Source of the DNA: Mesostigma viride
Taxonomy: Eukaryota > Streptophyta > Mesostigmatophyceae > Mesostigmatales > Mesostigmataceae
Direction of reading: 5' to 3'
NCBI GenBank assembly: GCA_009746045.1
Contig: RPFO01000022.1
Location: forward strand, 2,664,041-2,728,040
DNA length: 64,000 nucleotides
Positions 8,842 through 54,601 of the stretch are shown here, piece by piece; position 1 is the stretch's first letter, and every line of letters begins with the position of its first letter. A program made the translations under genes and the position numbers. The notes below the pieces were generated by a model. That model was not told where the DNA came from. It saw only the letters and a list, made by a program, of their open reading frames with translations, and ran no database searches.

Positions 8842-9408
8842 TCAGCCATTGTTTTCCCTGATGGACGTCGTGTGCCCAATTCATCTCAGGGTGTCTTTCT
8901 TTCCCATCTGGCTGGTTGCACCATTCCTGATCAACACCTGTGACGCATCTGTGTAGCATCGCTTTATGTGTAGCATTGTATTATGTGAGTGGTCGGTCGT
9001 TGCATTGCTCTCTTGCAAATCCGTGGGGCCCTCAGAATGCCCTTTTGAATCCATGGTGTCCCCGCTATGATCACATGCGCCATATCAGCATACCAGAGCG
9101 CTGGTGGTGTAACCCACTTCATCATTGCGACACCAATCAGATGACTGACAGTAATGGCGATAGATTCTTTCTTTACTTGTAGCGCTGCCAGCCTGCCACA
9201 AATGCTGATTCTAGTAGCCCTGACCCGCTGACCCCAGGCAAAAAGTGTGGCTGTAAATCCAACTCATCAGCTCTACCCAACCCCTCTACCCAGACCCTAT
9301 GACAACTTTTACTCACCCTTCCCCCACCCCCACCCCCTCTCCCCACCCCCTCTCCCCACCCCCTCTCCCCACTTCCCCTGCCCACCCCTTCTCCCCACCA
9401 CCACCCAG
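8842..9408. other. Region upstream of the MYND gene
   Basis: No gene seen. The last ~110 bp (9297-9408) is a C/T-rich CCCCACC-type tract ending CACCCAG directly before the ATG. This looks like a polypyrimidine tract plus splice acceptor, so an upstream non-coding exon is possible. Confidence 0.4.
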
Positions 9409-26760: not shown

Positions 26761-27818
26761 CCAAGCCGAGGTAGAGGGGGCACACATGTTGGGGGCACCT
26801 TTATATACAACGAGCTGAAGAATGTGCGTGCTCAGTGTCCTGCCTGCATCAAGATCAGGAAGAAGTCGCGTAGGCGGCATGCCAAGACTCCACCCTTGGA
26901 GCGAGGGTACCTTGTGGGGGATGTCATGCACATGGAAGGGGGGACACCTATTTCATAGTCAAGGATAGGTTCAGCAAGGTCACCTACATTGAGCCGCTGC
27001 CCCACATGTTTGAGGCTGACCTGCACAGGGCTATCAAGATCAGCCTGGCTTTCTTTCATCCCGTAGTGGAGCTCATGCTAGACCAGCAGTTCCGCTGTGT
27101 GCAAGGTTTGCCGGGGATGGAGGCCGTGGTCATCGTGGGGCGTGAGGATCACGGCAATATGGGCATGATAGATCGCACTGTAAGCTATGTCAAGACTGTG
27201 GCAGCCAAGCGACAGGATAACCCACATGGCAAATCCTACGCGGTCAAGACGGCGTGGTGCAAGGAGCTCATGCATGTGTGCAACCATAGGCACGTGCTTG
27301 ATGTCAAGGGCTTTGGGCTAGTCACGCCTCGGGGGCTGTCAGCGGGCACCTACTCACCCGAGGTAGTAGAGGCATACCAACAGCATCTACAGGATACCGC
27401 CGCCAAGCTGCGGCTCAAGGATGCCACGCTGCCTGATTTGTCTAGCGCTTTTGAGGTCGGGCAGTTGGTCATGTTCCACAAGGAGAGCTCGCCCAGCGGC
27501 AAACGGGGCACCATGCAGGGGCCTGGGGCCATCACAAAGTTAGACTGGCCGCTGCGGGTCATAGACATAGAGTGGAATGATCGGGTGTATAGGGTACCAT
27601 GGGCATCGGTGGCAGGCTATAAGCAAGGGGATAGCATGGAGAGTGAGCTGGCAGCCAACAGGGCACTGGGGTGGGTAGTGAAGGATAATGCGCCTGTCGT
27701 AGCATCTGAGGTGGTACCCCACGGGTCGCTCCCAGGGGCAGACACAGCTACACCCCCCCCTCCCCTGGGCCCCAATATGACCCCGTGGATGGGTGGGATG
27801 AGGATGGGGTGGGTTTGA
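26731..27818 (+). pseudogene. Copia integrase, frameshifted
   Basis: Integrase inserts element cDNA into the genome. The zinc-binding HHCC motif is readable across a frameshift: HRAYGHE (26733-26753) and QCPACIKIRKKS (26837-26871). A second shift near 26935 leads to YFIVKDRFSKVTYIEPL. From 27006 the frame is open for 270 codons and includes MLDQQFRCVQGLPGMEAV, KTAWCKELMHVCNHRHVLDV and a C-terminal region with GQLVMFHKESS and MQGPGAITKLDWPLRVID. The canonical D,D,E residues cannot all be assigned by eye. The ORF ends at 27818 and overlaps the next ORF by 34 nt in the -1 frame. Confidence 0.65.
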
Positions 27819-35891: not shown

Positions 35892-36431
35892 TTATGGCGG
35901 GTTGGGTGTGATCCCCATACTGGCCAGAATGCCCACCAGCTTGGGCATGGACGAAACCAGGTTGGTGTCGTCCACCATGGACACGTACATCTTGGAGCCC
36001 AGGTTCATCTTGAGCACGCCACGCCAGTTGCGCGTGTCCAGCAGGTCCTCCTCCATGACGACGGGGATCATGGCCCGCGTCGACTTCTGGGCGACCGCGT
36101 AGCTGAACTCGGCCTCGCAGTTGTCGTCCGCGTCGCTGTTCACCTTGTCCATGTACCGCGCGGTGACGAACACGAGCACAGCCTTGGCACCGTCGATGCC
36201 TGCGCACATCTGCTGCCGGATGTGGCCCACCATGCGGTCCTCGTCGAACCAGGTTGTGAACCCGAGCGCCTTGAGCGCCGCGTTGACCCGTGCGACGCGC
36301 TCGTGGTTGTTGCGACCGGCCTTGTCCACACCCCAGTCGTGCGTGAGGAAGAGGTCCGACGCGTGGCTCTTGGGGGGGATGTACGCGGACCCGGACTCCA
36401 TTCGGCTAGGTGGCGCCGCCGCCTGCGTCGC
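35892..36431 (-). CDS. Exon 15: TIR domain, C-terminal
   Basis: 179 codons after acceptor CTGCGGCAG, stop at 35892-35894. TIR landmarks: the first strand HASDLFLTHDWG, the BB-loop region GFTTWFDEDRMVGHI, GIDGAKAVLVFVTARYM, then DDNCEAEFSYAVAQ. The last fits the CxxE pattern of the catalytic glutamate in NAD-cleaving TIR domains. MIPVVMEEDLL and NWRGVLKMNLGSKMYV follow. The domain looks complete and undamaged, so NADase activity is possible but inferred. An in-frame ATG (MESGSAYIPP) lies 12 codons in. Confidence 0.88.
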   Translation of the reverse strand, partial: ATQAAAPPSRMESGSAYIPPKSHASDLFLTHDWGVDKAGRNNHERVARVNAALKALGFTTWFDEDRMVGHIRQQMCAGIDGAKAVLVFVTARYMDKVNSDADDNCEAEFSYAVAQKSTRAMIPVVMEEDLLDTRNWRGVLKMNLGSKMYVSMVDDTNLVSSMPKLVGILASMGITPNPP

Positions 36432-39400
36432 CTGCCGCAGGATATGGAGCAGCACATTTTGACAATGTGGGCAAAGCCACGTTTGTACAGTTTTGTGGTT
36501 GTTAGATGTTCTAATCAAGGAATGCCAAGAAGACGTTACTCGTGGATGGGGCACCATGACAAACGGACAAACGGACAAACGGACAAACGGACAAACGGAC
36601 AAACGGACAAACGGACAAACGGACAAACGGACAAACGGACAAACGGACAAACGGACAAACGGACAAACGGACAAACGGACAAACGGACAAACGGACAAAC
36701 GGACAAACGGACAAACGGACAAACGGACAAACGGACCAATGACCACTGGACGAATAGACGAATAGACGAATAGACGAATAGACGAATAGACGAATAGACG
36801 AATAGACGAATAGACGAATCCACCACCAGGCCACCAGGCCACCAGGCCACCAGGCCACCAGGCCACCAGGCCACCAGGCCACCAGGCCACCAGGCCACCA
36901 GGCCACCAGGCCACCAGGCCACCAGGCGACGAGGCGACGAGGCCATGAGGCCACGAGGCCACGAGGCCACGGGACCACGGGACCCCTGGACCCCTGGACC
37001 CCTGGACCCCTGGACCCCTGGACCCCTGGACCCCTGGACCCCTGGACCCTGGGACCCTGGGCCCCTGGACCACTGGACCACTGGACCCCTGGACCCCTGG
37101 ACCACTGGACCACTGGACCACTGGACCACTGGACCACTGGACGACTGGACGACTGGACCCCTAGACCCCTGGACCCCTGGACCCCTGGACCCCTGGACCC
37201 CTGGACCCCTGGACCCCTAGACCCCTGGACCCCTGGACCATTAGACCATTAGACCAATAGACCAATAGACCAATAGACCAATAGACCAATAGACCAATAG
37301 ACCAATAGACCAATAGACCAATAGACCAATAGACCAATAGACCAATAGACCAATAGACCAATAGACCAATAGACCAATAGACCAATAGACCAATAGACCA
37401 ATAGACCAATAGACCAATAGACCAATAGACCAATAGACCAATAGACCAATAGACAAAAGGACAAGTGGATCAGCGAAGCATGGGACAATGCAAGAAGTCC
37501 TTGGTTCTTAGTCATTGTACGTGGACAGGGCAAGTAATGAGTGGCCAGTGCCCACCAACACCAGACGACCAACGCCTCGTCACAGCGCTGCCTAAGTTAT
37601 TTCGTAACATGACCATGCGCATGACATGCATACAAGCATTCCATGCAGAAAGCGCGACACATGTCCCTCGTCTTGTCCTGCTCAACGGGAGCCCATGCAC
37701 ATCCACTGGTGCAGCAACTCATTCAACTGCCAGGCTTTGCAGCGGCAGCCTCTTATTGTCGGTAGCGCACCACCGCTTTGCCTCGTGCAATCTGTGAAGC
37801 TGTGCAATTCGAGAGGCTGATCGATATGGGCCCTTGACCACTACTAGGGACCACTCCCAACCACTCCCAACCACTCCCAACCACTCCCAACCACTCCCAA
37901 CCACTCCCAACCACTCCCAACCACTCCCAACCACTCCCAACCACTCCCAACCACTCCCAACCACTCCCAGCCACCGCAAAGCACTGGCAAGGGAAGACTG
38001 GCTGCTCCATAAACCAACAGGGGCATGGGCTCCCAAACGATAGCAAGGGCATGGTAGTAACGACATCGCATGCTTCTCACAGAAAACTCTACACAACTGG
38101 TTAGGCCAAGCAGTGCATGTTATTTCTCACCCCCTCGGAGATGACGCTACTCTATGTCAGCAAATGCATGTCCCCCTCCCAGGAGGCCCCCCCCAAGTCC
38201 GGCACTCACCAGGGGTGCGCTCTGGTTGAAGGATGTGCGCGCCTCCACCGCCCTGCGCGAGGCGTGCAGCGCCAGCACCTCGATGATCTCCACGTGGCGG
38301 CCCGCCTTGGCCAGGCTCAGCGGCGTGTTCCCGTCCTGCAAGCACATATGCAGATGTCCAAACAACCAGTGGCCAAAGAGCGGTGTCTGAAGAACAGCTG
38401 CGCACACATCCGTTGTCCAAACCGAGCAAGTGCTACCATTATTCGGACATCCCTGTCAGCCCGTTGCACCAGCATCACCAATTCCAGTCCACGTTCCTTC
38501 CGCACACCCTTACTGCCCGCCCACAGCTCTCACCCAATCATTACTTGTCACCTAGAAGACTGCACCCCCGCTAAGCGGCTTCTCCCAAGCCACATGTCCT
38601 ACGCCACCGGTCTTGGCCCCGAGATGCACACCGACAGAGGGAGGTACCAGCGTGCGCATTACATATGGGGACAGGAGGTAGATAGGAGATACTGCTACTA
38701 CGGAGATACTGCTACTAACCAGATACTGCTAATAAGGAGATACTGCTACTGCGGGAGATACTGCAACTGTAGAATTTGCATAAGCAGTAATTGCAAAAAC
38801 AGGTGGATAGACAGCATCCCAGATGAATATCGTTGCGCGGTGGGTTCTAACGTCCCTGCATTGCTGGGTTCTTTCTTGTCCTAACGCTTGGTCCTAACAC
38901 CTCGTTGCTGGGTCTCCTTGAAACGAGTGTTCCATGTTGGGCGCTCATCGAAAGGGAAAACGTCAGAGTGTACAACAGACGCTAAGACAAAGCCGCGTGT
39001 CATGGGCCCAGCCATGCTGACTTGCTAGCATAGTGCATACCGCAGTGGCCATAAAAATATTTTGTACATTTCTTTTCGACGGACCCCGCGGTAAGTGCTG
39101 AAGAAAGATTTTGGTCCGAGATCTATGCATTAGTGGGTGCGCTGAGGGCGCGCTACATACTGCATCTAACATGTGCCGGAGGCGCAGCGTACAGTACGTC
39201 GAAATACTTGCAAGCCCTGGCCGACTTTCCCTCGTAAAATGCAAAATCCAGGTTTAATGTGGGTCGAGAAAACGACGGAAAGTACTGCTAGAGAAGCCTG
39301 GTAATGAAAAAGATGTGACAAGCAACTGACAAATGGTAAAAACAAGTTTTATAAAAGCATTAGAAGGCAGATCTGACATGCTTTGTGTTGCAGGCGTAAT

Positions 39401-42400
39401 ACCGACGGCTGACACATGGGCAAGTAGACCGAGCCAGTCTGGCTCAAGTAGGTCGAGCCAGTTGGCATGCATGAGGCTCCCCTTACATGCATGCATTGTA
39501 TTGCGCAACACCCTACTGACAAGAACATGACTGCATAACAGCAACACATGGGCACATGAGCCACTACCAGTTAGTAACTAATTATAACCAGTCTGACGCC
39601 CACCAACGTCATCCTTTGCGCCGCACAAGATGACATCTGAATTCAACACATAGGCAAACAAGGCCACCTCGTCTGGCGCCCACCCACCCACCTCGTCCTT
39701 TGCGTTGGCATCTACGTTGAGGGTCAGCAGGTAGTTGACCGTGTCCAAGTGGCCTTCCTTGGCAGCCACGGCGAGGGGGGTCCTCCCAAACTGGGCGCGC
39801 CAAAGACAAAGTGCAGGTTTTGCAAGGCAGGGCTAGATAAGTACCCAGGTGGTGCAGCCCAGGTTTCATGGCACACAGGTGAGGTAAAGCGCCCGAGTGA
39901 AATGCACTGGTGCAATCAGCGCAAGCGGAATTACTTTTGTGGTAAAGCCCAAGTTTGATAAGCATCCAGGTGTGGGAAGCATGATGTACTCACGGGGGGC
40001 GACCTGCACAGCAGTTGGGGACCCACCTATCTGACGATATCCTGGTAATGGCACACATGGTGCAGCAACACGAGCAAATAGTGTGACATGACATCGCTTT
40101 GTGTAACCAACCCTTGTCAGATATGGCTGCTGCTACACAATATCCCTGGGCCCCTGTGCGCATGGGCACCACCAAGCGGCACCGTAGGTGCCCACGACGC
40201 GGCAGCAGCAACACAACCAGCAACTCATGCACAACACAACCCATTCAGGCATTGCAGTTCCTTCCTCCCCGCATAGTGCACCTACCCATCCATACATCCG
40301 TTTCAAGATGCTCCGGGCCCTCACGGCAGCCTATCGCGAGTGGCAGCAGCAACCCAGGAACAACCAACGTGGCAAACACAACACAACAAATGGCGTGGCA
40401 AACAGCAACGCAAAAAAACTCTCACTATGTTCCTGGCCACTGTGTCACCCTAGTAGGCGTGGCAGCACCGAAACCGGCACCGGCAACACCATGGCAGCAA
40501 CTCACAATGTTCCTGGACCCCGTGTCAGCCTCGTGGGCCACGAGGAACTGCGCGGTGTCCAGGTGGCCCAGGGACACCGCCAGGTGGAGCGCCGAGTTGC
40601 CGTCCTGCGGCAGCATTACGGCATGGACAGCATACATAGAACAACATACATTCTAGTTAGTATACCCGTAGGCAAGGTGTGGGGACATGGTGGCCCGAGC
40701 TGCCATCCTGCGCCGGCATTACGTACCGTGGACAGCAGGACACATACATGCTAGTTAGTGTCGAGGCAAAGTTGGGGGAATAGTAGGGGGTGGAGCGCCG
40801 CATTGCCCTTCTGGGCCGCCACGGCCACTGAGGGAAGTTCCAAGCACAGGCAGGGCACGAAAGCACTGACATGATGCGTAGACACAAAGTCGTGGCTACG
40901 TAGCCCTGCAATCACAGCATGGGTTCAAGACTTCGTGCAAGCGACACGTGCCATGTTACAGTACGCCGCAGGAAGCCAGGGCATAAGCCAATTCGGTAGC
41001 AGGTGGGTGTAACGCTGGTTGGTTCAGACCCTGTTCACCGAATGACAAAGAATATTGTATTAGTTCTAGCAGCCTCGAAACAGTGCCCAAGAAGCTGCCA
41101 TCGCTACGAGTAGAGGGAGGCTACGCGGCTAACCCACCCGTTTCTTGAGCTGGTCCCACCTTGAAGTGTGCTTGCACAAGAGCCATGGTCACCTGCAGGC
41201 ACTCTAAGCTCAGGTCATCACTGCAGCTCACCATGTATTTTCAATAAATAAATGTCTACAAGTACGGATTACATTTTTAACATTTTATTATAAATGGCGG
41301 GGGCTGAGCCCAGGCCCCCTGTCCGTGCCACGACAACTGCGACCACCGGATTCCAGTACCTACTGCCACGACAGCCGCGACCACTGGATGCCAGCACCTA
41401 CCGAGTTCTTGGCATCCACAGCCGCCCCCGACGCCACCAGATGCTCCACCATGCTCAGCGGCGCGTGCGACGCCGCCAGGTGGAGCGGCGTGTTGTTCCT
41501 CTGGGGAGGGGAGAGGGGGGCGGGGGGGGGGGGATGGGATGGGATGGGACCAACCATCGATGAGACAAGCATGAATTACGACATGATGTGAACAGCCACG
41601 GCCAGCTCATGACCAAGGGTGGCAGAATCTGGTGGGATCCAGAACACATTGTACCAATTGGACCAAACTGCGCATACAATTGGGTTGGTAGAATGCTGGC
41701 TGAAGCAGATGGAAGCAGGCTTGTCAGTAAATCGTGAGAGTAGAGGCCCCCTCCCAGCCAACAGCTCTGACGCTAATGTGTTGCTGGCCCTTTTATTTTT
41801 CTGGCTGCCTCTGGCTTGCTAGCTTTGCTTGCCCGACACCGACTACGGCATACCCAGCTGCGTGCCATAAGCAGTGCTTGGTGACCCAAGTTTGCGCGAG
41901 AAGCAGACAAACTACGATAAGCCACGAAGACTGCTCGGGATGGGTCCCACCCAGCCCTCTTCTCCCTATGTAGATACCCCCTGGTCGTCCTGAAGAACGT
42001 TGGGGCTGCTAATGACCAGGGGACAGCCGGGCAGGCATGCAGAAAGCCTTGGCTGGACGCCCCCTACCCACTCACCCACTCATGCAGCAGCAGCACTTTT
42101 TCAGCACATGTTATCTCACAGCAGCACGGGCAAAACGGACCCACCAGGTTGCGGACGCCAGTGTCCGCCTTGTGCGCCACCAGGTACTTGACCACGTCCA
42201 GGTACCCCTGACCGGCTGCCAGGTGCAGTGGCGAGTTACCTTCCTGCAGTGGGGACGCATACCAAGGTTTCACGGGAACGCATACACACAAATGGGGTCA
42301 TGGCACCGCGGCACAGGGATCGATTGGGGCAACACAGAGGCAGCACATAGGGCTTGTTATTCGCGTACTTGGCGCACTTGGTCGCCCGGAAGAGATCAGG

Positions 42401-45400
42401 AACAATCCCTGAAATATAATGCTGACGACTCTCAACGATTTCAAGTGCCCCAGTCTATGGCCTTGAAAGGCAACCTCTTTGGTACCACTGACAAAAATGT
42501 TGGTATCACTGACATAAATGTTGGTATCACTGACATAACCAGAGCATAAAGCAGTACCAGTATATGATTTTGAGCCCCAGTATGCCCCTAGTAGTATACA
42601 ATACGATGTGATACAGGCATCATGGTCTGTCAGGATGGCATGTCACTGCTGAGTGACGTGTGGACCAAGGAGACCTGATTGTGACCTTGACAGGACATGC
42701 GTACATAACTGCAAGGCGCGGTGGGTTTTATCCTGCGGTCCGTCACGTCGGAGCCCACCGGCCCGCATATAAAAGTGGATAGTCACGTACTTGAGGATTA
42801 GCACTCAAATGACTACAGTGATGGAAATTCCTGAGACATCTCCGAGCATCTGCCAAACGGGGCTACGAGAGGGGACCGTGGCAGTGTGCAACTTTCTCGA
42901 CAAGAGAGCCAGGCTCTTCGCGCTGCCCTCGACAGTGCAGTAGCGGTTCGTGCCCCATGCTGTGAATAAGCATGCTGCCTCCCACCACGCAGAAGAGGCC
43001 ACCGCATCAGCCATGCACGACGAGGGAGGGAACAGGGCCAAAATAGCAGTAGCCAGAGCAGCGCGCGAAATACTTTAAGTGGCGCATGAGGATCGTCTGC
43101 ACTGCCATTTATATGATGAGACGCGGCGTGGATGGCCATGCCAGCAAATGGCAGTACCCCACCCAGACCGCAAGAATGAAGGTTGCCGTAGTACCATCGC
43201 CGCGGAGCTGCCTGAGCATGTCAGGATGTAGACAAGTTTGGTATGGAGACTCTTATGCTATAAATGATGGTTTGGTACGGATCTCACAAGTCATCCTGGC
43301 TGCCACCATGCTACAGATACTCACTCACTTCTCTTCTTCCTTTCTATGCATGTTTTCTACTGCGCTTTTTTATGTTATACTTCAAATTTAATAAAGTCAC
43401 TTGGACGGCCACCTATGAGCCATGCATGCGAGATCTGGATTCCTTTCCCCTACTGCCAGATGCCAGCATTTACCGCGTTCTTGGCGTCAACCATGGCGCC
43501 CGCCGTCACCAGGAGCTCGACCAGGGCGCCATACCCGCGGGACGACGCCAGGTGTAAGGGAATGCTGTTCCTCTGGGGGAGGGGGCGCCATGATTGGGAG
43601 GGGGCCATGATTGGAGTATAGTAGACAGCGCAAGGTCGCACATCGTGGCTAGTGTTAGACACTTCCCTAGACGACCTGACGTGTGACTAGAACAGACACG
43701 GGATGCAGTTGGATGCATACGACATGAGACGAGAACAGACACGAGGTCCCATGGATGTATAAAATTGAACCAGGCCATCAGTACAAACCAATCAGCAGGG
43801 GGGACCTTGAATTGGCTTCTATGCAAAATACAAAGGTGCTACTAGTAGGTCTGGGGGTCCATTGGATGACAAAGAGGGGTTCTTGGCTGACAAGGGTGCA
43901 AGAGGAAGGGGGGTAATTGGTTGACATAGGGCGCAAGAAGAAGGGGGGTAATTGGGTGGCTTAGGGCGCAAGAAGAAGGGGGGTAATTGGGTGAAAAAGG
44001 GCGCAAGAAGAAGGGGGGTAATTGGGTGGCTTAGGGCGCAAGAAGAAGGGGGGTAATTGGTTGAAAAAGGGTGCAAGAAGAAGGGGGGTAATTGGGTGAC
44101 GAAGGGCGCAAGAAGAAGGGGGGTAATTGGTTGAAAAAGGGTGCAAGAAGAAGGGGGGTAATTGGTTGAAAAAGGGTGCAAGAAGAAGGGGGGTAATTGG
44201 TTGACACAGGGCGCAAGAAGAAGGGGGGTAATTGGTTGAAAAAGGGTGCAAGAAGAAGGGGGGTAATTGGTTGACACAGGGCGCAAGAAGAAGGGGGGTA
44301 ATTGGTTGAAAAAGGGCGCAAGAAGAAGGGGGGTAATTGGTTGACATAGGGCGCAAGAAGACGGCACCTAGTGAGCTTGCTGGGGTGGAAACGTTGGTTC
44401 AAACAGCTTTCCATGGGTAGTGTGAGCAGGATGCCGTCGTAAGGGCAGCACACCATGACCATGTCATACAATGCCATAACCTTGTCATATAATACCATAA
44501 CCATGTCATGTATAATACATAAATACTACACACACATGTATATAACACCATAACCATGTCATATAACATAATAACCATGTCCGATAGCACCATAACCATG
44601 TCATATAATGCCATAACCACATCATATAATACCATGCCAATGTCGAATACCCCACACCCTCTTGTTTTGTTCTGACATGACCCTCAAACCACTGCATGGA
44701 GAGAGCGTCTATATCCATATCCAACACCTCAGAACTTGGTTTCTCTGTAGCTTCCCCCCATCTGCCAGTCTGGCGATAAGGTCCTGACCACGAGGTGTCG
44801 ATAAAATATAGTAAGGAGTGGTACTATAAGATGTAAGGAGTGGTACTATACGAAAGTAAGAAGTGGTGCTACAAGATAGTAAGGAGTGGTAATATAAGAT
44901 GCAAGGAGTGGTACTATAAGCTACCAAGAAGTGGTACCGTAATATAGCAAGGAGTGGTACTACAAGCAACTAAGAAGTCATTGCCTTGTGGAGACATAGA
45001 GCAACAAGACAAGACGGTCAGGGGCCGGCCCTGAGGGATGCATGCAGCTCCAAGCATTCAGCCAGCATGTGGCACTCAGTCACGTGCTAGTCATTAACTA
45101 TGACATGGCACTCTGTCACGTGCTCTGTCACGTGCTGTTTAATGAATCGACACGTGGCACTCGCCTTGTCACGGGCGTTCACGTTGGCCTTGCGGTCAAT
45201 GAGGAACTTGGCCAGCTTCAGGTGGCCCCTGGACACCGCCAGGTGCAGCCAGGTGTCGCCCTCCTGGAGCGCCAGCGGGCCGCGGACCTGCCAGTACCGG
45301 GGACACAAGAGGGGACCCGCGTGGGGAAGAACAGGAAATGCAGAGTCTCTTCAATGGGACGGATGTTCATTAACTGAATAATTCATAAGCACGTGACTGC

Positions 45401-48400
45401 ATCACGTGGGTGCCAATAATTAGTTAATTAATTATACTCGTGCTCCCGTTGGGGAGTCACGGAGCACCGGAGTGCTTTTGATCCTTGCATGTGCACAACA
45501 GGAAGAAAGGGCAGAGACCCCCTTTCTCCTTCATGCCAGAGGCATGCCACAGCAGCAATTGGACACGATAGACGATCCGGCAAGTTCTCTGGGTGCAATA
45601 AGACCCGTGTGAGCATATCATAACAAGGAGCGTGGGCAAGTAAGCTGATCATAGCCAGGACATAGCATGGCTGTACAAGGGCTAAGCTAAGGCTATGGCT
45701 GGTTGTGTACCGTGCGTTAGCGGTGCACGTGGCTAGCTAGGTATGGCGGCACGGCTAGGCAAACATTCTAGGCATGGCTGCCATGGCAGGTGCCAATAAA
45801 GGAACTTCCAACCCCCATGATTCATACATTGATGCATGATCGAAGATAATTACTATTTAAAGATTATTCACCTGCCACTGTAAAAACTACAGGAGGCATG
45901 ATTCCTGCATCAGAGATGTTTCAGCAAGGCCCTTGGGTCGGGCACCAGTTGGCGCCCCCAGGTGCCCATGAGACCGTGAGTCATGACTAGAGCTGGGCAA
46001 AGCGGCCCCTTGATGGAGGGGTCGCCCTCGCTAAGCCTAGTATGATGGCTATGGTCCTTGTAGCGGTCACTCTAAGGGTTTGCCTCATGAAATGTAGGAC
46101 ACCGTCATGCGTCACTAGCGTTCGTAATGCCGGAACCTTGCAGGCTCACTGGGGACCTGCGACCGAGTAGCATTCTTGCACGAACGTCACGACGACGACG
46201 CGGGATCGAGCTTGTAGCCTACGCGGCTGTGTGGAGGCCGGTGAGACGGGATGCTCACGGCACGGATCGTCGCGATGCCAAGCCTGTGCTGGTTGTCTGG
46301 TTGATGACATGGTCACTATACTGTAGTAATGTGTTGTGGCACGGGTCCTCGCGATGCCCAGCCTGCGCTGGTTGTCCGGTTGATGACATGGTCACTATAC
46401 TGTAGTGATGTGTTGTGGCACGGGTCCTCGCGATGCCCAGCCTGCGCTGGTTTTCCGGTTGATGAAATGGTCACTATACTGTAGTGATGTGTTGTGGCAA
46501 GGGTCCTCGCGATGCCAAGCTTGTGCTGGTTGTCTCATGGATTAGGGCTGTACCGAATACTGAACCGAATACCGAATATCACTCGAGAACCCAATCAAAT
46601 ACCGAATTCATTCGGATACGGCGGACACATCGCCAAACCGAATCTATTCGAATTCGAATACGGCAATAGCGGTCACGAACCGAATATATTCGATTCAAAT
46701 ACGGAAGGACCAACTATTCAACGAATATATTCGGATCATCTGAATCCAATACTACCTAGCCTGGCTGGTGTCAGTCAGTAAGTACCCTAGTATGCAAGTA
46801 CTTATGTAAGGCCGGACCCGCCCATGGCTCCACTAAATATAACTCTGTCGGATAAGCGGTTTGGGAATGAACTGACTGACTGATTGACGGACGAACGGAC
46901 TGACTGACTGGTGTCAGTCAGTCAGTCTGTGTATTCCCACGCTGCGCCAGCACCCAGGAGTGCCAGACTTCCAAGCTGTTCCAAGCCAGTGGCTGGCTGC
47001 CGGCGTGGCGCGACAGCGCCTGGGTCGCTCCGCAGTCCAGATGGGCTACTACGGCTACTAGTTTCTACTAGACATGTTCCCTTCGGTATTCGGTAAGTGC
47101 AGGATTTATTTGGTATTCGATACGGGCATCAGAGTACCGGATATATTCGGAACCGAGTACGGGAACCACTCGTAGCAATCGAATACATTCGGATTCGATG
47201 CGGTGGACCCAGAGGACCGAATATTCGATACGGGAGCCAAAAATGGTATTCGGTACAACTCTATCATGGATACCATGGTCACTATACTATAGTGATGTCA
47301 AGCCTGTGCTGGTTGTCTCATTGTTGCGGTGAAACCATCAGTAACTGTGAAGGACGTAGCTGTGAAGGCAGCATTGTGACACACCTGTGTGGATGAATGG
47401 CTCCCTTCATTGCCTTGATGCCGTTGGGGTCCCCAACTTTATAAGACGCGGCCTGCCTGCAAGGCCTTGGTGCCATTGCTGTCTTAAACTATAAAAAGGC
47501 TGCCTACCTTCATGGCTTTGGTGCCGTTGGAGTCCCAAACCGCCAGCATCTCCTCCACCAGCGCAATATACTCATCTTCGTATGTGCTCAAGGGGTTGGC
47601 CTGCGCCACCAGCATCAGCATTAGCAGCGACAGCAAAAGCAGAAAAAAGAAGCAACAAGAGAAGCAGCAATGAGCAGCAGGCAGAAGAAGAAAAAGAAGA
47701 AAAAGGAGGAGAAAAGTCAGCACCGCCATTACCACCGCCAGAAAGCGGAGCCCGTTGTGTGTCGTCAAGGGCCACTTCGCGCAAGCAGAGCACCGAAGAC
47801 CACAGGTGGCAGCAGTACTTCTAGTAACGGGACGTATACGTCAGCCGCTGACGCGTCCGACTTTTTCGTCCGCACGTCAGACAGCTGACGCGTAAATTTT
47901 GGCTCTGCGTCAGTCGACTGACGCATAAATTTTGTCTGCACGTCAGTCGTCTGACGCGTAAATTCAAGCAGCAGGTCACTGACGTCAGTACTTATGGGCA
48001 CCGAGTCTATGCGTCAGGCAGGGTCAATATATAGTGGGTACCTACTAATGTACTGAAGTCCACTGACGTTCTAACTTCGTACTGGATATCTACGAATTCA
48101 AGTTCACCAGTTCAGGTCTGTTCGTTGATACGCTTCAAGATTCTAGGCCGTTATCATGCCCATGCCAGACCCGCCGGCCCTTAGCCTGCTTGGCGGCGAG
48201 AGTGACGAGAGTTCTAGACGAATGTAAAATTGTAACCCAGGACGACTGGCACTGGTCGATGTCTCGATGATGGCAAAGGTTTTAGGAATATGATTGATGA
48301 GCTGATTGATGAAGCGTTGCGAGGTTGCCTGATTTACATATTGCTTTGAATCAAATTCCAGGTGTGTTTATTAACGCTGTAGATTTGTTTGCATAAGAAA

Positions 48401-51400
48401 GAATTCTTCCATTACTAGATGCGTAGGGAAATTTCGGGCCGGGTCAGTAATATTGTATAAACATTTAACAACGTGAATGGTTTAGTCCGATAGTCAACTA
48501 GCAAAGTTAGCGACCTGGGGGTTGGAAGTTTTTGGGTGAAGGGATGGCGCCGGATGGAATACTGGGAAAAATTAAATCTGGGGGGATCGCAGCTTTTTTC
48601 ATGCCGAAACAGGCCGCCGACACGGCCAAAGCGCCTGCGCCTGGTCCGCGTGCCATTGTTGGCGTAGGCCAGGCAGCCGACGCGCTGAACCGCAGCAAGA
48701 GGAAAAGGGGGAATGATAGCAACGCAGCCAGCTGTGCAGCAGCAGCATCGGCTCAGTCCGGCAATGCTGGTGAGCCCCCAGGCTGACGCGCCGCCAACGG
48801 CGGCAAGTCAGCCGTTTGACGCGCCGCCAACGGCGGCAAGTCAGCCAGGCTGACGCGGACAAAAACCCTTACTAGAAGCACTGGGTGGCAGCAACAGGGG
48901 GGGAACTACACAGAACTTCAGAGCAGCATCCTCTCCCTTGTGTAATGGCTAGCTCATCTCCCTCTCAGTGATGTGGTGTTCCACTAATGATGTTCCGTGG
49001 CATGGCGGGGTGAGGGGCCATAGGCAAGCCAAGTTCCTCACGCAAAGTGTGGACAATCGCGTGAATGCTTTCCCTGTTGCATATGGATGAGAAGTATTAC
49101 GAGGCCGAACTAAGAAGGTCGTGACAGGGGGCATGACAAGGGCATGACAAGGGCGTGACAAGGGCGCGATAAGGGCGTGATATGGGCGTGGCAATGGCGT
49201 GATAAGGGCGTGTCACGCCATTGCCACGCCCATATCGCGATAAGGGCGTGATATGGGCGTGGCAATGGCGTGATAAGGGCGTGACAACGGCGCGGCAAGG
49301 GAGTGACAAAGGCATGACGACAGTGTGACAAGGGCGTGACAAGGGCGTGACAGAGAGGGCAGCGGGCAAGAAGGACCATGGAGGCATATCGTACCAGCGC
49401 TTGAGGATCCCCCATGTGCCTCTTTGCGTGGTCGGTGAGGACTTGGACGACTTCACGGTGGCCCTTGCCCTCGGCCACGGTCAGCGGCGTCATGCCATCC
49501 TGGTAGACCAATGGGAGGAATGCAGCCGTGATGCGCATTCCAAGAAATGAGTTTGGTATCGAAACACCTGCGCCCTCACCATCATGCCCGGATGAGGCAA
49601 CCAATAGGCTTTCCAACAGCATAAAATTGGTTTACGACAAAGAAATTTGGCGTACAAAAGAACGTAACAGCTGACTCCGTGACAGCTGGAAATGTTCAAC
49701 AATGCACGCAATAAACGGATACATTCGTTAAACCAGACGAGCTCGTCAGCGTATGCACGCATTAGCAAATGTGTAGACACTGCTTAAGCATTGAACTTCT
49801 CAGACAGATGGACTTTGCAACCCCTCCCACCCGGTGAGCGACATGGTCCCACCCCCAGCAGGCATCCCTGGGAGCCCTCACCGCGTCAGTTGTGTTGGGA
49901 TCCGCCTTCTGCGAGAGCAGGTACTTGACCACCTCCGCGTGGCCCTCGCTAGCCGCGACGGCCAACGGCGTCCGCCCTGACTGCATGGTGGGTGGGCGAA
50001 AAGGGAGCGCCGAAATGGAGGGGGGGAGAAGGGATGGGCCAGCATCTCAAACTGATGCTGATCAGCATCTCAAAATGAGTCGCGGGCCATGGTTTTGCGG
50101 CGCAAATGCATGAGATCTGCGGGTGTGCTGTGCGTGTCGCGTGCCTATGAGAAGTTGTGTTGGCAAAGTGACAGACGCAAGCCCACCGAGAAGCCAACCA
50201 AACTAGCGGAAACGTTGGGCCAGAGGACTAGACGTTTCAGTCTCCAAGTAGACATACGTTGCGTCAACATACTAAAACTGTCCCGGCAAATGCTCGATAG
50301 ACATCCGAGGAGACACTATTTCTACTGGCCTCCCTGCCATTTCCCCGGCCTTTGCTGTCATTCCCCGATTTGCAGCCATGCTACCCATCAAGTAGCAACC
50401 GCCATGCAGCCCTTATGATGACGCGCCACACACCTCCCCCCACCTGTACTTGCGCATGCCCCCTGACCCCCCAACCCCCAACCCCTACCCCCCATCCCCC
50501 ACACCATCCTCCTCCCCCTTCCCTATACTCGCGCATGCCATGAACCTTCCAACTTTTTAGCAGGCACCAGGTACCTTCCCACACCCTCGCACTTACGCAC
50601 GCACGCACCTTGTCGTTCTTTCCTGGGTTGGCTCGGTTCGCTCCCAGCAGCATGACCACCTTGATGTGCCCCTTCCCGGCGGCGATGTGCATCGGCGTCT
50701 CCTGGTTCTGCGGGGGACAGAATCGTAAATGAGATTGAAATAGACATGATTAAATGAGACTTGAAAAATTAGATTAGATTAAATGAGACTTGAAAAATTA
50801 GATAGATTAAATGAGACTTGAAATAGACATGATTAAATGAGACTTGAAAAAAAAAACAGATTTGATACATTCATTTGATGAATGATAGCCATGGTGAGGC
50901 CTTGTTTATGCAGCCATCAGGCAGAAACGAGGGGTGGGGCCGTCACAGAGGCTTTGGATTCCTCATTCCCAGCGCAGGGTGTCTATCCCAGGGATTCGTA
51001 CTCTGCTGTGACGTTGGCAGGATGTGAGGTTGGCTGTAACGTAGGCAGCATTCATCGCAGCAAGGATGCACCTCGTGCTTGACTAAGCAGACATGTTCCA
51101 AGTTGTCAGCGATCCTTCGGCCCATTGTGGGCTGATGCCGCGAGCCAAGTCACTGCACCCCAAAGCACCTCCCTTTGTGGCCCTGGAAGAGGATTTACCT
51201 CGACCATTCCGTCAAATAATCTACTGTAATATAATAATGATGCAAAAGTATGCCTTATCATCACAAAGTCATGCTTTCGAAGTCACTCAGGCTACAGGGT
51301 CATGCTTGCACGTCAAATCGCATTCAGCTAATAATGTGACAATTGCCCCGATGCAACACGCACATGTTGATCCTGCCCCATGACTCTCCACATGACAACC

Positions 51401-54400
51401 CCGACTACAAATGACGTGAGTACAACGTACGTGTTGCTTCGAGCAGCCGCTGTGATGGGGACAGACTGCGCTGCAGAGAAGAAGGACCTGCGGCATCATG
51501 CTATCGTCTTCAGGAAAAAGGCAGGCCCAGGGCTGGACATACCCTTAAGCACACACACACGCACACACACACAATCTCCAGCAGACTGCGTTCAAAGCTA
51601 AAGGAATAGTTGCATTCCTCTGGCACCTTTTCATTGAGGATCAGCATAGAAAGCAACCAAGCTACAGATTTCCTTCATCCCCGCTCCACATCAATATGCT
51701 GGCCGGCGTAGCGTGGTGGACTAAACACAACACCCTTGCTGAACAAAATGCCGATGATTGATTCTTTTCATAAAGCTTCGTTCAGGGTGAAGCTGAAGCC
51801 ATGGCACAGACACGTACTTTCCATGCGCTGTGGCTATCTCAATGACTATCTCGACGCATTATGGCGGCAGTGCAGATGCCAGCACCCACCCCATTCCTGG
51901 CCTCCATGTTCGCACCGCTCACGATGAGCTGGTGGGCGGCGGCCAGAGACCCTCCGGCAGCTGCCTGGTGGAGCGCCGTGTTGCCCGTGACCTGCGCCAG
52001 CAATCATCGCGGCATGAATAACAGGGCCATCATATCGTAGTACACTAGTTGGCAGAGACAAGGTACGAGGGCATCATGCGTGGTGGAGCGCCGTGCTGCC
52101 CGTGACCTGCGCCAGCGATCATCACGGCATGAATAACAGGGCCATCATATCGTAGTACACTAGTTGGCAGAGACAAGGTACGAGGGCATCATTGCAGGTG
52201 GAGCGCTGGGCTGCCCGTGACCTGCGCGAGCATCAATAATAGCACGGTGGATGTGGCCATGGCATACAGACAAGACACCGCGATACCATATAGGCACTTC
52301 ATAGTGGCCATGGCATATAGACAAGACACCGCGATACCATATAGGTACTTCATAGTGGCCATGGCATATAGACAAGACACCGCGATACCATATAGGCACT
52401 TCATAGTGGCCATGGCATACAGACAAGACACCGTGATACCATATAGGCACTTCATAGTGGCCATGGCATACAGACAAGACACCGCGATACCATATAGGCA
52501 CTTCATAGTGGCCAAGGCATACAGACAAGACACCGTGACACCATATAGGCACTTCATATACAGTCATTCCCGCGTTAAGTTGCGATCGCCGCCAAATTCT
52601 GGGTGCCGTAACTTAACGCGGGAACGTAACTTAACGGTAGAATTAGGCGAGCAGCCCACCCCCTCCTACTCCGACGGACTTCTATACGGCATTCGACAGC
52701 TCTCGTCAAGCCCGATTCAGCTGCAGCATCAAGGCCTCTCAAAGTACGGGATTTCGTACCATTTCTGGATGCGGCGAGGCTGGGCGCTGCGGGATGCTTG
52801 GGTGATAGGCTGATAGCGAGGCTGCGCAGCTGCGACTTTGCTAGTTCAGCTCAGTTCAGATCCGGCTGAGCAGGTCATCCTGCTGTAGCCTGGCACTAGC
52901 TATGTTCTGCGACTCTTCTTCTTCTGTGTTCTGTGTTCCGGCCTCCCGGAATCCGGGTTCCCTGTTCCCTGCGACCCTGCCGAGCTCGGCCTAATGAGCT
53001 CGCCCTATTGCCACTAATTAAGTGGAGCATTCAGCATGGCCTATTTTGCTTCCTATACAAACTGTATCGTCACAACTGCAACGTCGTCTCACTTATTAGC
53101 TATTATCATAGCGGGCCCCCTATTCTGGAGTCCGGACGTCCGGACTTGGCCATTTTCGGCATCCTCCGCAGCCAAAAGTAGCCCGACGACTACACTTTGG
53201 CTCAATGCCACGTTAAGTTATGATGGCACCCAGGCTTAAGTTACCGTCGCCGCCCACACTTCGGCGTCGTAACTTAACGCGGGAACGTAACCTTAAGAAT
53301 CATAAACCTAACGCGGGAATGACTGTAGACTCTTCATATAGGCACCGCATATAGGACACTGCGATACCATCAGTGGTGTTGCCCCCGTGATTGGCATCAA
53401 ATCGCCGCACACAGTGTACACGGTTATATGTGAGCGGGAACAGCAGTTGTGTATGGGGCCGAACTTGCCTGTGCAATAGCACGGTGAGATTTTTGTCACT
53501 GCTCGTCGCAAGTGCCATCCTCTGGTCATAGTCTTACAACGACGCGTCGACAGAAGGTAGACAGGTCAAGGCATGATGTGGTAAACGGTGCGATGGGACC
53601 AAGGAGCGGGTGCATGGCTTTGCTTCATCCCAATTGCCAAGGGCCTTGCTACTCCCGCAGCCGCAATAGCCCACACCGCTGCAACACATGCATGCACACA
53701 CATGCACCCCCTCCCTCCTCCCTTCTCTCTCCCCCCCCCCCCCCTCCCCCAAACACACACACGCAGTCAAGCAAATGTGCACACACATACATACACAAAA
53801 AGAAAAGTACTCATAGTTGCATACAGCTTTGGACACAAGGTCGGGGCACCCACCCCAGACTTTGCCTCCAAGCGGCTGTCCTTTGTTACGTTACGAATGA
53901 CATAGACGCACACATGCATACACACCAATGTGATGCACACACACACAAACACACACTTTGCCTCCAAGTTGGCTGTCCTACGATGAAGGACAGTCCTCTA
54001 AACTCGAATGTGAGGAAGGGCACATGTATAAAACGCAGCGCACGCCAGGCTGTGTGCACCCACCCCGCCCTTTGCCTCCAGGTTGGCGTTGTTCTCCAGC
54101 AGCAGCTGCACGAGCTTGGTGTGGCCCCGCGCTGCCGCCAGGTGCAGCCAGGTGTCGCCATCCTGTGGTGCCAGCGACGCGGCCGACAAGCAACCATAGT
54201 GGGTTGATGCCCATTGATCCAGGTCAGTGCCAACACACCGGGGCGAAATGGGACAAAGCACTGCTCATTTGGGGGCCCGATCCCGATCGTTTGGGAAGCT
54301 TAACAGCGCGGCACCAAATATTTTTGTAGCTTGAAGGCAGGATGAGCCGGACGAGCGGCCAAAAGCTGTGACAGCCACAGCAGACACAGTTATGAATGGT

Positions 54401-54601
54401 GTGTTCACATCGCCTTTGAAATAATTTAGTACCTGAATGGGCTTGTTGATAGCAAAGTCCTTGCTCAAGCAGAATTACAGATTGAACTTCCCATGCCCTC
54501 TCTGATGGTACCTGGATGGGTTTGTTGACGTCAACGTCCTTGCTCGAGAGAAGCTTGCGTACTTGCTTCAGATTCTCTTCCTCCTCACGATGGTACTGCC
54601 G
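35892..54601 (-). CDS. Ankyrin-repeat/TIR-domain protein, 15 exons recognised (5' end not found)
   Basis: Spliced minus-strand gene. Exons: 54512-54601, 54064-54162, 51890-51991, 50609-50707, 49882-49980, 49395-49499, 47508-47600, 45165-45263, 43474-43572, 42145-42243, 41402-41500, 40506-40604, 39692-39790, 38210-38335, 35892-36431. Every junction has an AG acceptor and a GT donor (one GC), and every exon begins and ends in phase 0, giving about 648 aa. Twelve exons each encode one ankyrin repeat, usually exactly 33 residues with TPLHLA and GH..VV..L motifs. The terminal exon encodes a TIR domain. Ankyrin arrays bind protein partners. TIR domains act as signalling adaptors or NAD-cleaving enzymes. 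A sensor with TIR output is plausible, but the function is inference. No NB-ARC is seen. The start codon lies upstream of 54601. Exon-by-exon support comes from conserved motifs and splice sites, not transcripts. Confidence 0.75.
36552..37453. repeat. 8-bp satellite with stepwise-changing unit
   Basis: Successive blocks keep an 8-bp period while the unit changes: GACAAACG (~22 copies), GACGAATA (~9), CCACCAGG (~12), AGGCGACG to AGGCCACG to GGACCACG transitions, GACCCCTG, GACCACTG, GACCCCTG again, then GACCAATA (~25). It lies in the intron before the TIR exon. The long Gly/Val/Ser open frames on the minus strand here are artefacts. Confidence 0.95.
37454..38209. repeat. Intron remainder with CCACTCCCAA array
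   Basis: About twelve copies of the 10-bp unit CCACTCCCAA at 37852-37972. No coding signal otherwise. Confidence 0.85.
38210..38335 (-). CDS. Exon 14: last ankyrin repeat and linker to TIR
   Basis: Forty-two codons, DGNTPLSLAKAGRHVEIIEV then LALHASRRAVEARTSFNQSA and PL. Acceptor CTTGCAG, donor GTGAGT. Followed by a 1.8-kb satellite-filled intron. Confidence 0.82.
38336..39691. other. Intron 13, no other feature recognised
   Basis: 1.36 kb. GATACTGCTACTA repeats at 38685-38765, and the small exon-end copy near 39600. Confidence 0.5.
39692..39790 (-). CDS. Exon 13: ankyrin repeat B6
   Basis: Thirty-three codons, FGRTPLAVAAKEGHLDTVNY then LLTLNVDANAKDE. Acceptor GCGCCCAG, donor GTGGGT. A copy of the exon end plus donor lies at about 39598-39625. 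Confidence 0.85.
40506..40604 (-). CDS. Exon 12: ankyrin repeat B5
   Basis: Thirty-three codons, DGNSALHLAVSLGHLDTAQF then LVAHEADTGSRNI. Acceptor TGCCGCAG, donor GTGAGT. Near-duplicate of exon 10. Its acceptor plus first codons recur at about 40709 and 40818. Confidence 0.85.
40605..41401. other. Intron 11 with partial exon copies
   Basis: Two partial copies of the exon 12 acceptor plus 5' end at about 40690-40720 and 40785-40830. No other feature. Confidence 0.55.
41402..41500 (-). CDS. Exon 11: ankyrin repeat B4
   Basis: Thirty-three codons, RNNTPLHLAASHAPLSMVEH then LVASGAAVDAKNS. Acceptor CTCCCCAG, donor GTAGGT. Near-duplicate of exon 9. Confidence 0.85.
42145..42243 (-). CDS. Exon 10: ankyrin repeat B3
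   Basis: Thirty-three codons, EGNSPLHLAAGQGYLDVVKY then LVAHKADTGVRNL. Acceptor CACTGCAG, donor GTGGGT. Confidence 0.85.
42244..43473. other. Intron 9, no other feature recognised
   Basis: 1.23 kb without repeats or domains I recognise. A minus frame at 42805-43139 has no family resemblance. Confidence 0.5.
43474..43572 (-). CDS. Exon 9: ankyrin repeat B2
   Basis: Thirty-three codons, RNSIPLHLASSRGYGALVEL then LVTAGAMVDAKNA. Acceptor CCCCCAG, donor GTAAAT. Confidence 0.82.
43886..44362. repeat. 35-bp minisatellite, about 13 copies
   Basis: The unit GGGCGCAAGAAGAAGGGGGG plus TAATTGGTTGACATA has three alternating endings (TTGAAAAA, TTGACAYA, GTGGCTTA). It lies in intron 8. Poly-(Pro/Leu) minus frames are artefacts. 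Confidence 0.93.
44440..44985. repeat. Two short minisatellites in intron 8
   Basis: ACCATAACCATGTCATATAAT-type units (~21 bp) at 44449-44640, and AGGAGTGGTACTATAAGATG-type units (~22 bp) at 44810-44975. Confidence 0.8.
45165..45263 (-). CDS. Exon 8: ankyrin repeat B1, GC donor
   Basis: Thirty-three codons, EGDTWLHLAVSRGHLKLAKF then LIDRKANVNARDK. Acceptor GCTCCAG. The phase-preserving donor is GCGAGT, a GC-AG intron. Confidence 0.82.
45380..45830 (-). repeat. Retroposon tail copy without ORF
   Basis: On the minus strand it contains the palindrome CACGTGATGCAGTCACGTG (45388-45407), TAATTAATTAACTAATTA, the tail A-like ACTCCCCAACGGGAGC (45442-45457) and, at 45700-45790, sequence like 62470-62590. 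Intron 7. Confidence 0.6.
46274..47330. repeat. 79-bp minisatellite, about 4 units, split by a hAT element
   Basis: Units contain CCAGCCTGCGCTGGTTGTCC, GGTCACTATACTGTAGTGATG and TGTGTTGTGGCACGGGTC. The last unit is interrupted after TGTCTCATGGAT and resumes ACCATGGTCACTATACTATA after the insertion. Confidence 0.85.
46543..47263. mobile_element. Non-autonomous hAT-type element, 721 bp
   Basis: Perfect 8-bp TSD TCATGGAT (46535-46542 and 47264-47271). Inverted ends TAGGGCTGTACCGAATAC / TAGAGTTGTACCGAATAC. Subterminal GAATACCGAATA and ATTCGGAT repeats at both ends. The middle has TGAC-rich repeats (46865-46930). No transposase. Confidence 0.88.
47508..47600 (-). CDS. Exon 7: helical linker before ankyrin block B
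   Basis: Thirty-one codons, ANPLSTYEDEYIALVEEMLA then VWDSNGTKAMK. Acceptor GGCGCAG, donor GTAGGC. Not an ankyrin repeat. By position it parallels exon 1. Two near copies of its 3' end occur downstream in the intron (about 47399-47430 and 47450-47482). Confidence 0.6.
47813..48883. mobile_element. hAT-type element, 1.07 kb, with one ORF fragment
   Basis: Perfect 8-bp TSD GGTGGCAG (47805-47812 and 48884-48891). Inverted ends CAGTACTTCTAGTAACGGG / CAGTGCTTCTAGTAAGGG. TGACGC and GTCAG subterminal repeats on both sides (47830-48020 and 48780-48860). Carries the start of an ORF at 48544. Inserted in intron 6 of the ankyrin-TIR gene. Confidence 0.88.
48544..48786 (+). pseudogene. N-terminal ORF fragment in hAT element, PCNA-box-like motif
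   Basis: Starts MAPDGILGKIKSGGIAAFFM and continues with an Ala/Pro-rich stretch, a basic RSKRKRG segment and a Ser/Ala-rich end. A donor-like GCTG|GTGAGC near 48768 could end a first exon. GIAAFF recalls the I..FF core of PCNA-interacting boxes found near the N-terminus of several transposases, though the leading Gln is missing. No zinc finger or catalytic core follows, so this is probably a leftover first exon. Confidence 0.35.
49125..49350. repeat. AAGGGCGTGAC array with perfect 24-bp hairpin
   Basis: 11-13 bp GGGCGTGACAA-like units. Within it, GATATGGGCGTGGCAATGGC-GTGA (49179-49202) pairs perfectly with 49213-49236 around a 10-nt loop. Intron 5. Confidence 0.85.
49395..49499 (-). CDS. Exon 6: ankyrin repeat A5 (end type)
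   Basis: Thirty-five codons, DGMTPLTVAEGKGHREVVQV then LTDHAKRHMGDPQAL. Acceptor CTACCAG, donor GTACGA. The altered C-terminal half looks like the end of an ankyrin stack. Confidence 0.8.
49882..49980 (-). CDS. Exon 5: ankyrin repeat A4
   Basis: Thirty-three codons, SGRTPLAVAASEGHAEVVKY then LLSQKADPNTTDA. Acceptor ATGCAG, donor GTGAGG. Parallel to exon 13 (FGRTPLAVAA). Confidence 0.85.
50609..50707 (-). CDS. Exon 4: ankyrin repeat A3
   Basis: Thirty-three codons, NQETPMHIAAGKGHIKVVML then LGANRANPGKNDK. Acceptor CCCGCAG, donor GTGCGT. Confidence 0.82.
50708..51889. other. Intron 3, no other feature recognised
   Basis: Contains ATTAAATGAGACTTGAAA repeats at 50740-50860 and a short CA run near 51553. 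No gene. Confidence 0.5.
51890..51991 (-). CDS. Exon 3: ankyrin repeat A2
   Basis: Thirty-four codons, VTGNTALHQAAAGGSLAAAH then QLIVSGANMEARNG. Acceptor GGCGCAG, donor GTGGGT. The acceptor and first ~20 exon bases are repeated twice more upstream (near 52106 and 52221). Confidence 0.8.
51968..52235. repeat. 115-bp tandem duplication across the exon 3 acceptor
   Basis: GTGGAGCGCCGTG...GACCTGCGCCAG plus the flanking intron (AATAACAGGGCCATCATATC) occurs at about 51968, 52083 and partly 52198. Confidence 0.88.
52253..52560. repeat. 51-bp minisatellite, 6 copies
   Basis: The unit begins TGGCCATGGCATACAGACAA and contains GATACCATATAGGCACTTCA. The array is cut by a pogo-type element, with fragments of the unit after it (53330-53375). 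Met/Tyr-rich open frames are artefacts. Confidence 0.93.
52561..53325. mobile_element. Pogo/Tc1-type MITE, 765 bp
   Basis: TA on both sides (52559-52560 and 53326-53327), inverted ends CAGTCATTCCCGCGTTA (17 bp perfect), and inner repeats AACTTAACGCGGGAACG at 52610-52630 and 53270-53290. No transposase. Intron 2 of the ankyrin-TIR gene. Confidence 0.85.
53376..54063. other. Intron 2 remainder
   Basis: Pyrimidine tract and CA-rich runs at 53695-53765 and 53900-53955. No gene. Confidence 0.5.
54064..54162 (-). CDS. Exon 2: ankyrin repeat A1
   Basis: Exactly 33 codons, DGDTWLHLAAARGHTKLVQL then LLENNANLEAKGG. Acceptor CACCACAG, donor GTGGGT. Closest in sequence to exon 8 (EGDTWLHLA). Confidence 0.85.
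54512..54601 (-). CDS. Exon 1 (recognised): helical lead-in to ankyrin block A
   Basis: Thirty codons, RQYHREEEENLKQVRKLLSS followed by KDVDVNKPIQ, between acceptor GGCTGCAG and donor GTACCA. Resembles the second helix and loop that cap an ankyrin array. A partial copy of its 3' end (SKDFAINKPIQ then GTAC) lies at about 54433-54470. Confidence 0.6.

Follow-up and report, generated by a model that had tools for sequence, protein, structure and literature searches.

A Mesostigma viride gene joining two arrays of single-repeat, phase-0 ankyrin exons to a C-terminal TIR domain

The window analyzed here is a stretch of 64,000 nucleotides from the genome of Mesostigma viride, a unicellular, early-diverging streptophyte alga that branches close to the root of the line leading to land plants. 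Splicing of exons on its minus strand gave a gene of 16 coding exons running from 55270 to 35892 (Table 1), the translation of which is identical, letter for letter, to the public model Mv06039-RA.1 (664 aa). As in the public models, these exons make up one real gene that codes for ankyrin arrays and a TIR domain. All 15 introns are in phase 0 and, apart from a single GC donor (exon 9), the borders are AG/GT, and the splice pattern given in a preliminary description of this DNA is borne out by the agreement of the spliced exons with the public protein. That description had counted 15 exons, all of which are real, but the ATG exon (55270-55247) lies upstream of the range it covered and brings the count to 16; likewise, eight of its nine ankyrin exons of exactly 99 nt hold, whereas the one placed from 45263 starts at 45287 in the public model and measures 123 nt. 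The twelve exons with one ankyrin repeat each are all present, but what had been described as a single array is split into array A, with five repeats, and array B, with seven, each headed by a non-ankyrin exon of its own. The correspondence of one exon to one repeat is shared with those animal ankyrin genes that have 99-nt single-repeat exons, which carry no TIR.

Table 1. Coding exons of the ankyrin-TIR gene and an associated tandem array, in window coordinates.
Feature	Position	Strand	Description
Exon 1	55247..55270	-	24 nt, MGGGISKS, ATG start and N-myristoylation-type motif (G2, S6, K7); donor TCG/GTGAGT (slash, exon border)
Exon 2	54512..54601	-	90 nt, array A N-terminal cap, RQYHREEEENLKQVRKLLSSKDVDVNKPIQ
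Exon 3	54064..54162	-	Ankyrin repeat A1, 99 nt
Exon 4	51890..51991	-	Ankyrin repeat A2, 102 nt; missing in RA.3
Exon 5	50609..50707	-	Ankyrin repeat A3, 99 nt
Exon 6	49882..49980	-	Ankyrin repeat A4, 99 nt
Exon 7	49395..49499	-	Ankyrin repeat A5, 105 nt; closes array A
Exon 8	47508..47600	-	93 nt, linker and array B N-cap, ANPLSTYEDEYIALVEEMLAVWDSNGTKAMK
Exon 9	45165..45287	-	Ankyrin repeat B1, 123 nt in public model; only GC donor, AAG/GCGAGT
Exon 10	43474..43572	-	Ankyrin repeat B2, 99 nt
Exon 11	42145..42243	-	Ankyrin repeat B3, 99 nt
Exon 12	41402..41500	-	Ankyrin repeat B4, 99 nt; 57% identity to B2
Exon 13	40506..40604	-	Ankyrin repeat B5, 99 nt; 60% identity to B3
Exon 14	39692..39790	-	Ankyrin repeat B6, 99 nt; missing in RA.3; 57% identity to A4
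Exon 15	38210..38335	-	Ankyrin repeat B7, 126 nt; closes array B
Exon 16	35892..36431	-	TIR domain (PF13676), C105-E-A-E108; stop codon at end
115-nt tandem array	51965..52235	-	2.4 copies; upstream copies of exon 4 acceptor and first bases

With the Pfam profile Ank_2, the joined exons scored 130.7 bits for array A and 208.5 bits for array B, far above the cut-off of 27.3, and a Pfam scan of P0002 placed it among ankyrin proteins (Ank_2, 383.8 bits; Ank, 246.1 bits). The TIR_2 profile (PF13676; cut-off 28) matched exon 16 with 51.1 bits and P0002 with 48.3 bits, and the exon is the complete TIR exon with CxxE that had been reported from the sequence. The proposed search with Ank, TIR and TIR_2 thus succeeded for the first and the last, but the classical TIR profile (PF01582) had no match in exon 16 at E up to 0.1, and it had none in the genome at E 0.001 (three candidates scored). 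No NB-ARC or NACHT domain was found in P0002 by the Pfam scan at E 0.01, which bears out the expected absence of NB-ARC and places the protein outside the NLRs, and the scan found no ARM repeats or SAM domains that would mark a SARM1 orthologue. The earlier term "NLR-like" is a loose label: the protein has no switch domain of the kind by which NLRs are defined, and its TIR sits at the C-terminus, an arrangement shared with SARM1. Beyond the ankyrin families and TIR_2, the scan at E 0.01 returned one weak, unrelated match under its cut-off.

Two public models of the locus, RA.1 and RA.3, differ in their ankyrin exons. RA.3 (597 aa) lacks exactly exons A2 and B6 without loss of frame. The annotation thus lends support to exon skipping, and the predicted skipping without a frame break agrees both with the phase of all introns and with the loss of two single-repeat exons from this model. 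The gene may give rise to a diversity of isoforms. The 115-nt tandem array offers candidate decoy acceptors before 52221 and 52106, in both cases with a TGA ten codons on in that frame, and may play a role in the skipping of exon 4. Alternatively, the modularity of the exons may be a passive relic of exon duplication without regulatory use, RA.3 reflecting either occasional mis-splicing or an artefact of the annotation; to this explanation, which is compatible with other readings, we give slightly less than an even chance. Exon duplication by itself yields phase-0 single-repeat exons, and possible decoy acceptors lie at exon A2. In addition, models RA.5 to RA.7 of Mv08812, a different TIR gene in this annotation, vary in the number of 26-aa repeats; as these repeats are in tandem inside one open frame, some of the annotated isoforms may stem from faulty assembly, and the Mv08812 isoforms were dropped as support for exon skipping and count against reliance on the isoform models. 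However, RA.3 drops two separate exons at exact borders, and neither is nearly identical to any other repeat (A2, at most 42% identity; B6, at most 57%), which makes a collapse of repeats unlikely in RA.3. Exon-modular LRRs have been described in NLRP3 and other human genes, where 171-nt exons hold two LRRs each and can be removed in frame, and the NLRP3 variant without exon 5 loses activity (Hoss et al., 2019, PMC6642158). Both genes have repeat exons of equal length with fixed borders, removable in frame, whereas NLRP3 is an animal NLR with LRRs, the splicing of which was shown by experiment, and the Mesostigma gene carries ankyrin repeats and its splicing is annotated only.

In the predicted model of the TIR domain, the C105-x-x-E108 motif opens a helix (104-116), and neither residue varies among the 11 rows of the TIR family alignment, from which P0001, P0002, P0004 and P0005, being the same genes as rows kept, were left out. 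A glutamate at the position of SARM1 E642 or RUN1 E100 is the criterion for a catalytic TIR NADase, and E108 is a candidate for it. A structural search with the TIR model gave SPARTA and SARM1 TIRs as best matches, SPARTA TIRs filling the top 16 entries. The domain may have NADase activity, and the gene an immune role. A non-enzymatic membrane adaptor, with the TIR as a scaffold bringing in further TIR proteins and the ankyrin arrays as ordinary protein-binding domains in signaling, would have a counterpart in TRAM, a myristoylated animal adaptor that recruits TIR proteins at the membrane; we consider it rather unlikely, because an idle TIR pocket is hard to reconcile with the invariant C105 and E108, and the predominance of SPARTA TIRs also speaks against it. 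N-myristoylation follows the rule MGxxxS/T, and the first eight residues of P0001 and P0002, MGGGISKS, fit it as judged by eye; from this motif, the N-terminal glycine is predicted to be myristoylated and to tether the protein to the membrane. The full-length predicted model (pLDDT 81.2, pTM 0.49) loses confidence over exons A2 and B6, which was taken as an alignment effect, since P0001 is gapped there.

We propose that the locus encodes a single membrane-anchored ankyrin-TIR protein, in which the ankyrin arrays act as sensor and the C-terminal TIR as an effector that cleaves NAD+ on binding, a reading that we regard as evenly poised between right and wrong. The protein would be held at the membrane by its myristoylated glycine; binding of a partner or foreign protein by the two arrays would lift the inhibition of the TIR, or cluster it, and the activated TIR would cleave NAD+, leading to a stress or cell-death response. 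By retaining or skipping individual single-repeat exons, the gene could adjust how long the binding arrays are and what surface they present, and leave the TIR unchanged. By analogy, the layout and logic are best read as closer to SARM1, an ARM-SAM-TIR NADase that likewise has the repeat array first and the TIR last, than to an NLR. Nevertheless, SARM1 has ARM repeats and SAM, and the Mesostigma protein has ankyrin repeats, no SAM in the Pfam scan and a single-repeat exon plan; furthermore, the N-terminus is mitochondrial in SARM1 and of the myristoyl type here. Oomycetes also have ankyrin-TIR proteins, described as uncharacterized (Lapin et al., 2022, PMC9153377), which combine the same two kinds of domain in a different lineage and are likened here by domain content alone.

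The two arrays resemble each other (A1-B1, 51% identity; A4-B6, 57%), and the repeat tree pairs A5 with B7 (98/97) and A4 with B6 (93/94). They share the same two last repeats, and the GDTWLH first repeat is present in B too. Two duplications, one of a cassette and one of an exon pair, account best for the 5 + 7 layout. These resemblances, and the leading exon of array B, would also suit two tandem paralogues, array A (55270-49395) and array B with the TIR (47600-35892), wrongly fused into one gene, and array A could end where the A5 frame, still open beyond its donor (open frame 49110..49631), meets a stop at 49110; such a fusion is improbable, because both public models span the A-B junction (QALANPLSTYEDEY), an argument that lapses if the models are prediction alone, and, moreover, phase and splice sites fit across the junction and tblastn with the TIR from 49395 to 47600 gave no TIR match, just a chance-like tail on A5 (49502-49302).

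By our own count, TIR matches occur at 19 places in the M. viride genome, the window included. Paralogues, which the preliminary description had suggested looking for, were found with the same exon plan: single-ankyrin exons lie within about 9 kb upstream at 6 of the 18 other places, 17 of these 18 exons fitting exactly 99 nt in phase 0, so that at least 7 of the 19 places carry them. The TIR paralogue tree was built without P0014 (long branch), L018 and L023 (stops), the split TIRs L019-L022 and L024-L028, and L005 and L012, apparent copies of L006 and L011. A broader proposal is a whole family of ankyrin-TIR sensors in Mesostigma, anchored at the membrane and free of NB-ARC, the arrays of which vary by combinatorial skipping of one-repeat exons, as a splice-diversified intracellular receptor system separate from TNLs; we regard this as improbable at present. 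If these proteins are sensors, the lineage used an ankyrin rather than an NB-LRR architecture, and exon-modular repeats would offer a testable means for a single gene to yield variants, comparable to the modular LRR exons of NLRP3. The usual account of plant TIR immunity concerns land-plant TIR-NLRs, and here a unicellular streptophyte has 19 TIR places. Compared with the plant TIR-NLRs and TIR-only proteins surveyed by Johanndrees et al. (2022, PMC9806590), the Mesostigma protein lacks NB-ARC and LRR and has its TIR at the C-terminus. "Mesostigma" goes unmentioned in the main text of the survey, which covers 39 plant species and reports that its four shared plant TIR groups held no sequences from the examined unicellular chlorophytes, red alga or charophyte Klebsormidium (PMC9806590). 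Among the matches listed in the open-licence literature, we found no paper describing an ankyrin-TIR family or gene in Mesostigma. A viral origin of the TIR family was considered and rejected: a scan of viral_contigs with the TIR alignment gave 50 pattern stretches, of which tblastn confirmed none (0/50). Finally, a defence-system library gave one weak match to the TIR exon, PDC-S66 (E 0.0014).

Splicing 16 minus-strand exons of the window (G000:C777:2664041-2728040 in the assembly searched, 440 Mb in 2243 contigs) exactly reproduced the public protein model Mv06039-RA.1 (664 aa), which terminates at a stop codon. All 15 introns are in phase 0, all exon lengths are divisible by three, and splice borders are AG and GT, with a sole GC donor 3' of exon B1. 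The preliminary description had the exon coordinates right, except that it missed the first coding exon (MGGGISKS), and the public model extends B1 by 24 nt. Two EukProt entries, jgi/Mesvir1/13052 Mv06039-RA.3 and jgi/Mesvir1/13051 Mv06039-RA.1, each contain a stretch identical to the TIR exon; their label denotes Mesostigma viride, a unicellular streptophyte alga, which is thus the source of the window, and the "-RA" suffix is MAKER style. The models may come from strain CCAC 1140, the other published genome, whose annotation, according to its paper, used MAKER with PASA on assembled transcripts (PMC7027972). In the paper on NIES-296, the assembly comprises 442 Mb in 2363 scaffolds and the mean intron is 1142 nt, near the mean of 1159 nt in Mv06039 (range 349 to 2220 nt; PMC6947507).

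The second model, RA.3 (597 aa), matches exactly RA.1 minus exons A2 (102 nt) and B6 (99 nt), so that the in-frame exon skipping predicted in the preliminary description has the annotation support of two gene models. Some isoform models in the same annotation may be artefacts, because in Mv08812, another TIR gene (G000:C1391, L004/L031), a 26-aa repeat occurs 3, 2 and 7 times in the models RA.7, RA.6 and RA.5, respectively, and in the genome this repeat is a 78-nt minisatellite 3' of the TIR, running in tandem inside one open frame. Collapse of near-identical repeats is an unlikely source of RA.3, since A2 and B6 reach at most 42% and 57% pairwise identity to any other Mv06039 repeat. Competition between acceptors is possible at A2, as this exon is one of the two absent from RA.3 and its acceptor and first bases are copied twice upstream; the exact 15-mer CGCAGGTCACGGGCA occurs three times in the window and in none of 100 shuffles, and the frame from the upstream copies meets a TGA after ten codons.

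A tree of the 12 repeats of the two ankyrin arrays (33 columns; full support at one of nine inner branches), read together with pairwise identities, pairs A1 with B1 (51% identity), A4 with B6 (57%, support 93/94) and A5 with B7 (37%, 98/97), while B2 pairs with B4 (57%), joined by A2 (85/91), and B3 with B5 (60%). The simplest history for these sequences would start from an ancestral cassette, in which one leading exon preceded five repeat exons, and which was duplicated in tandem; in copy B, repeat exons two and three were then duplicated again, giving 5 + 7 = 12 repeats. Its weakest link is A3, which is unplaced in the tree and 36% and 24% identical to B3 and B5. That array A and array B with the TIR are instead two genes became slightly less improbable because the A5 frame stays open up to a stop at 49110, and we still regard it as improbable.

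The single-repeat exon plan of Mv06039 recurs elsewhere in the genome. The TIR exon has at least 28 matches at E 0.001, which by our count reduce to 19 places, the window included, once we pool apparent copies on other contigs (C740 with C1790; C734, C1109 and C1503), the two parts of split matches, and the neighbouring pair on C1746. Scanning 10 kb at each of the 18 other places (~9 kb upstream) on both strands with a 12-repeat profile gave 18 ankyrin matches across six places (C1435, 1; C1413, 2; C335, 4 and 4; C734, 3; C1215, 4), every one of them in sense orientation; the opposite strand gave no match. In 17 of them the repeat is flanked in phase 0 by acceptor AG and donor GT exactly 99 nt apart, many paralogue exons admitting alternative borders; the remaining match, on C1435, fits 102 nt. 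The two ankyrin exons at C1413 are joined at the predicted borders in P0006 (Mv09536), a public protein. No ankyrin exon was found within ~9 kb upstream at 12 of the 18 places, a distance that longer genes would escape. In a tree of 22 TIRs, the 15 from Mesostigma cluster separately (98/98) from seven others, and those with ankyrin exons form no single clade. On C734 and C1109, TIR matches (L020, L021, L024, L025) come as two halves ~300 nt apart within one 332-aa open frame, the break lying near residue 98, which may reflect either an insertion or an unspliced intron inside the TIR.

Exon-modular repeats are already known and the Mv06039 models already public, and one paper mentions ANK-TIR proteins in oomycetes (PMC9153377). 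Among the matches listed from the open-licence literature, we found neither the combination of ANK-TIR with exon modularity, nor an ANK-TIR family in an early streptophyte, nor a single-ankyrin exon plan common to paralogues.

The order of parts in Mv06039, namely a lipid-anchor motif, two repeat arrays, a linker (residues 482-505, low model confidence) and a C-terminal TIR, suggests a membrane-held sensor in which the arrays would govern the TIR effector, SARM1 having the closest layout. A Pfam scan of RA.1 found no NB-ARC, so the TIR would have to be switched on by ligand- or membrane-driven clustering or by release from array inhibition. Skipping would remove whole repeats, altering array length and leaving the TIR untouched; in NLRP3, modular LRR exons likewise change the array by whole units (PMC6642158).

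The start MGGGISKS matches the N-myristoylation rule, an N-terminal sequence of the type MGxxx[ST]. Such starts occur in four of 11 distinct genes among 14 TIR matches (Mv06039, P0008, P0010 and P0011) and in two of 118 other ankyrin proteins, a difference that is a lead and not an enrichment test, because the latter are the best 118 of 2886 matches to the ankyrin part and are mutually related. P0012 carries MGSGIS at an internal Met, residue 13, and holds three TIR_2 stretches within one protein.

Coordinates of features in the window and of the adjacent TIR pair on C1746
Feature	Position	Strand	Observation
First coding exon	55270-55247	-
Exon A2	51991-51890	-
Exon B6	39790-39692	-
TIR exon	36431-35892	-
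115-nt tandem array	51965-52235	-	holds the copied A2 acceptors
8-nt repeat runs in the intron 5' of the TIR exon	36558-37454		five different units; occupy much of this intron
Long tandem array	811-5070		short near-identical units; several frames open on both strands
Putative Ty1/copia-type element	26874-30103	+	open frames resembling integrase and reverse-transcriptase polyprotein, judged by eye
MYND zinc finger-like frame	9232-10164	+	310 aa; cysteine pattern judged by eye
Adjacent TIR matches L010 and L018	G000:C1746:1109960-1110973		21-nt gap, both in a 383-aa open frame; L018, the second, has one internal TGA and lacks CxxE
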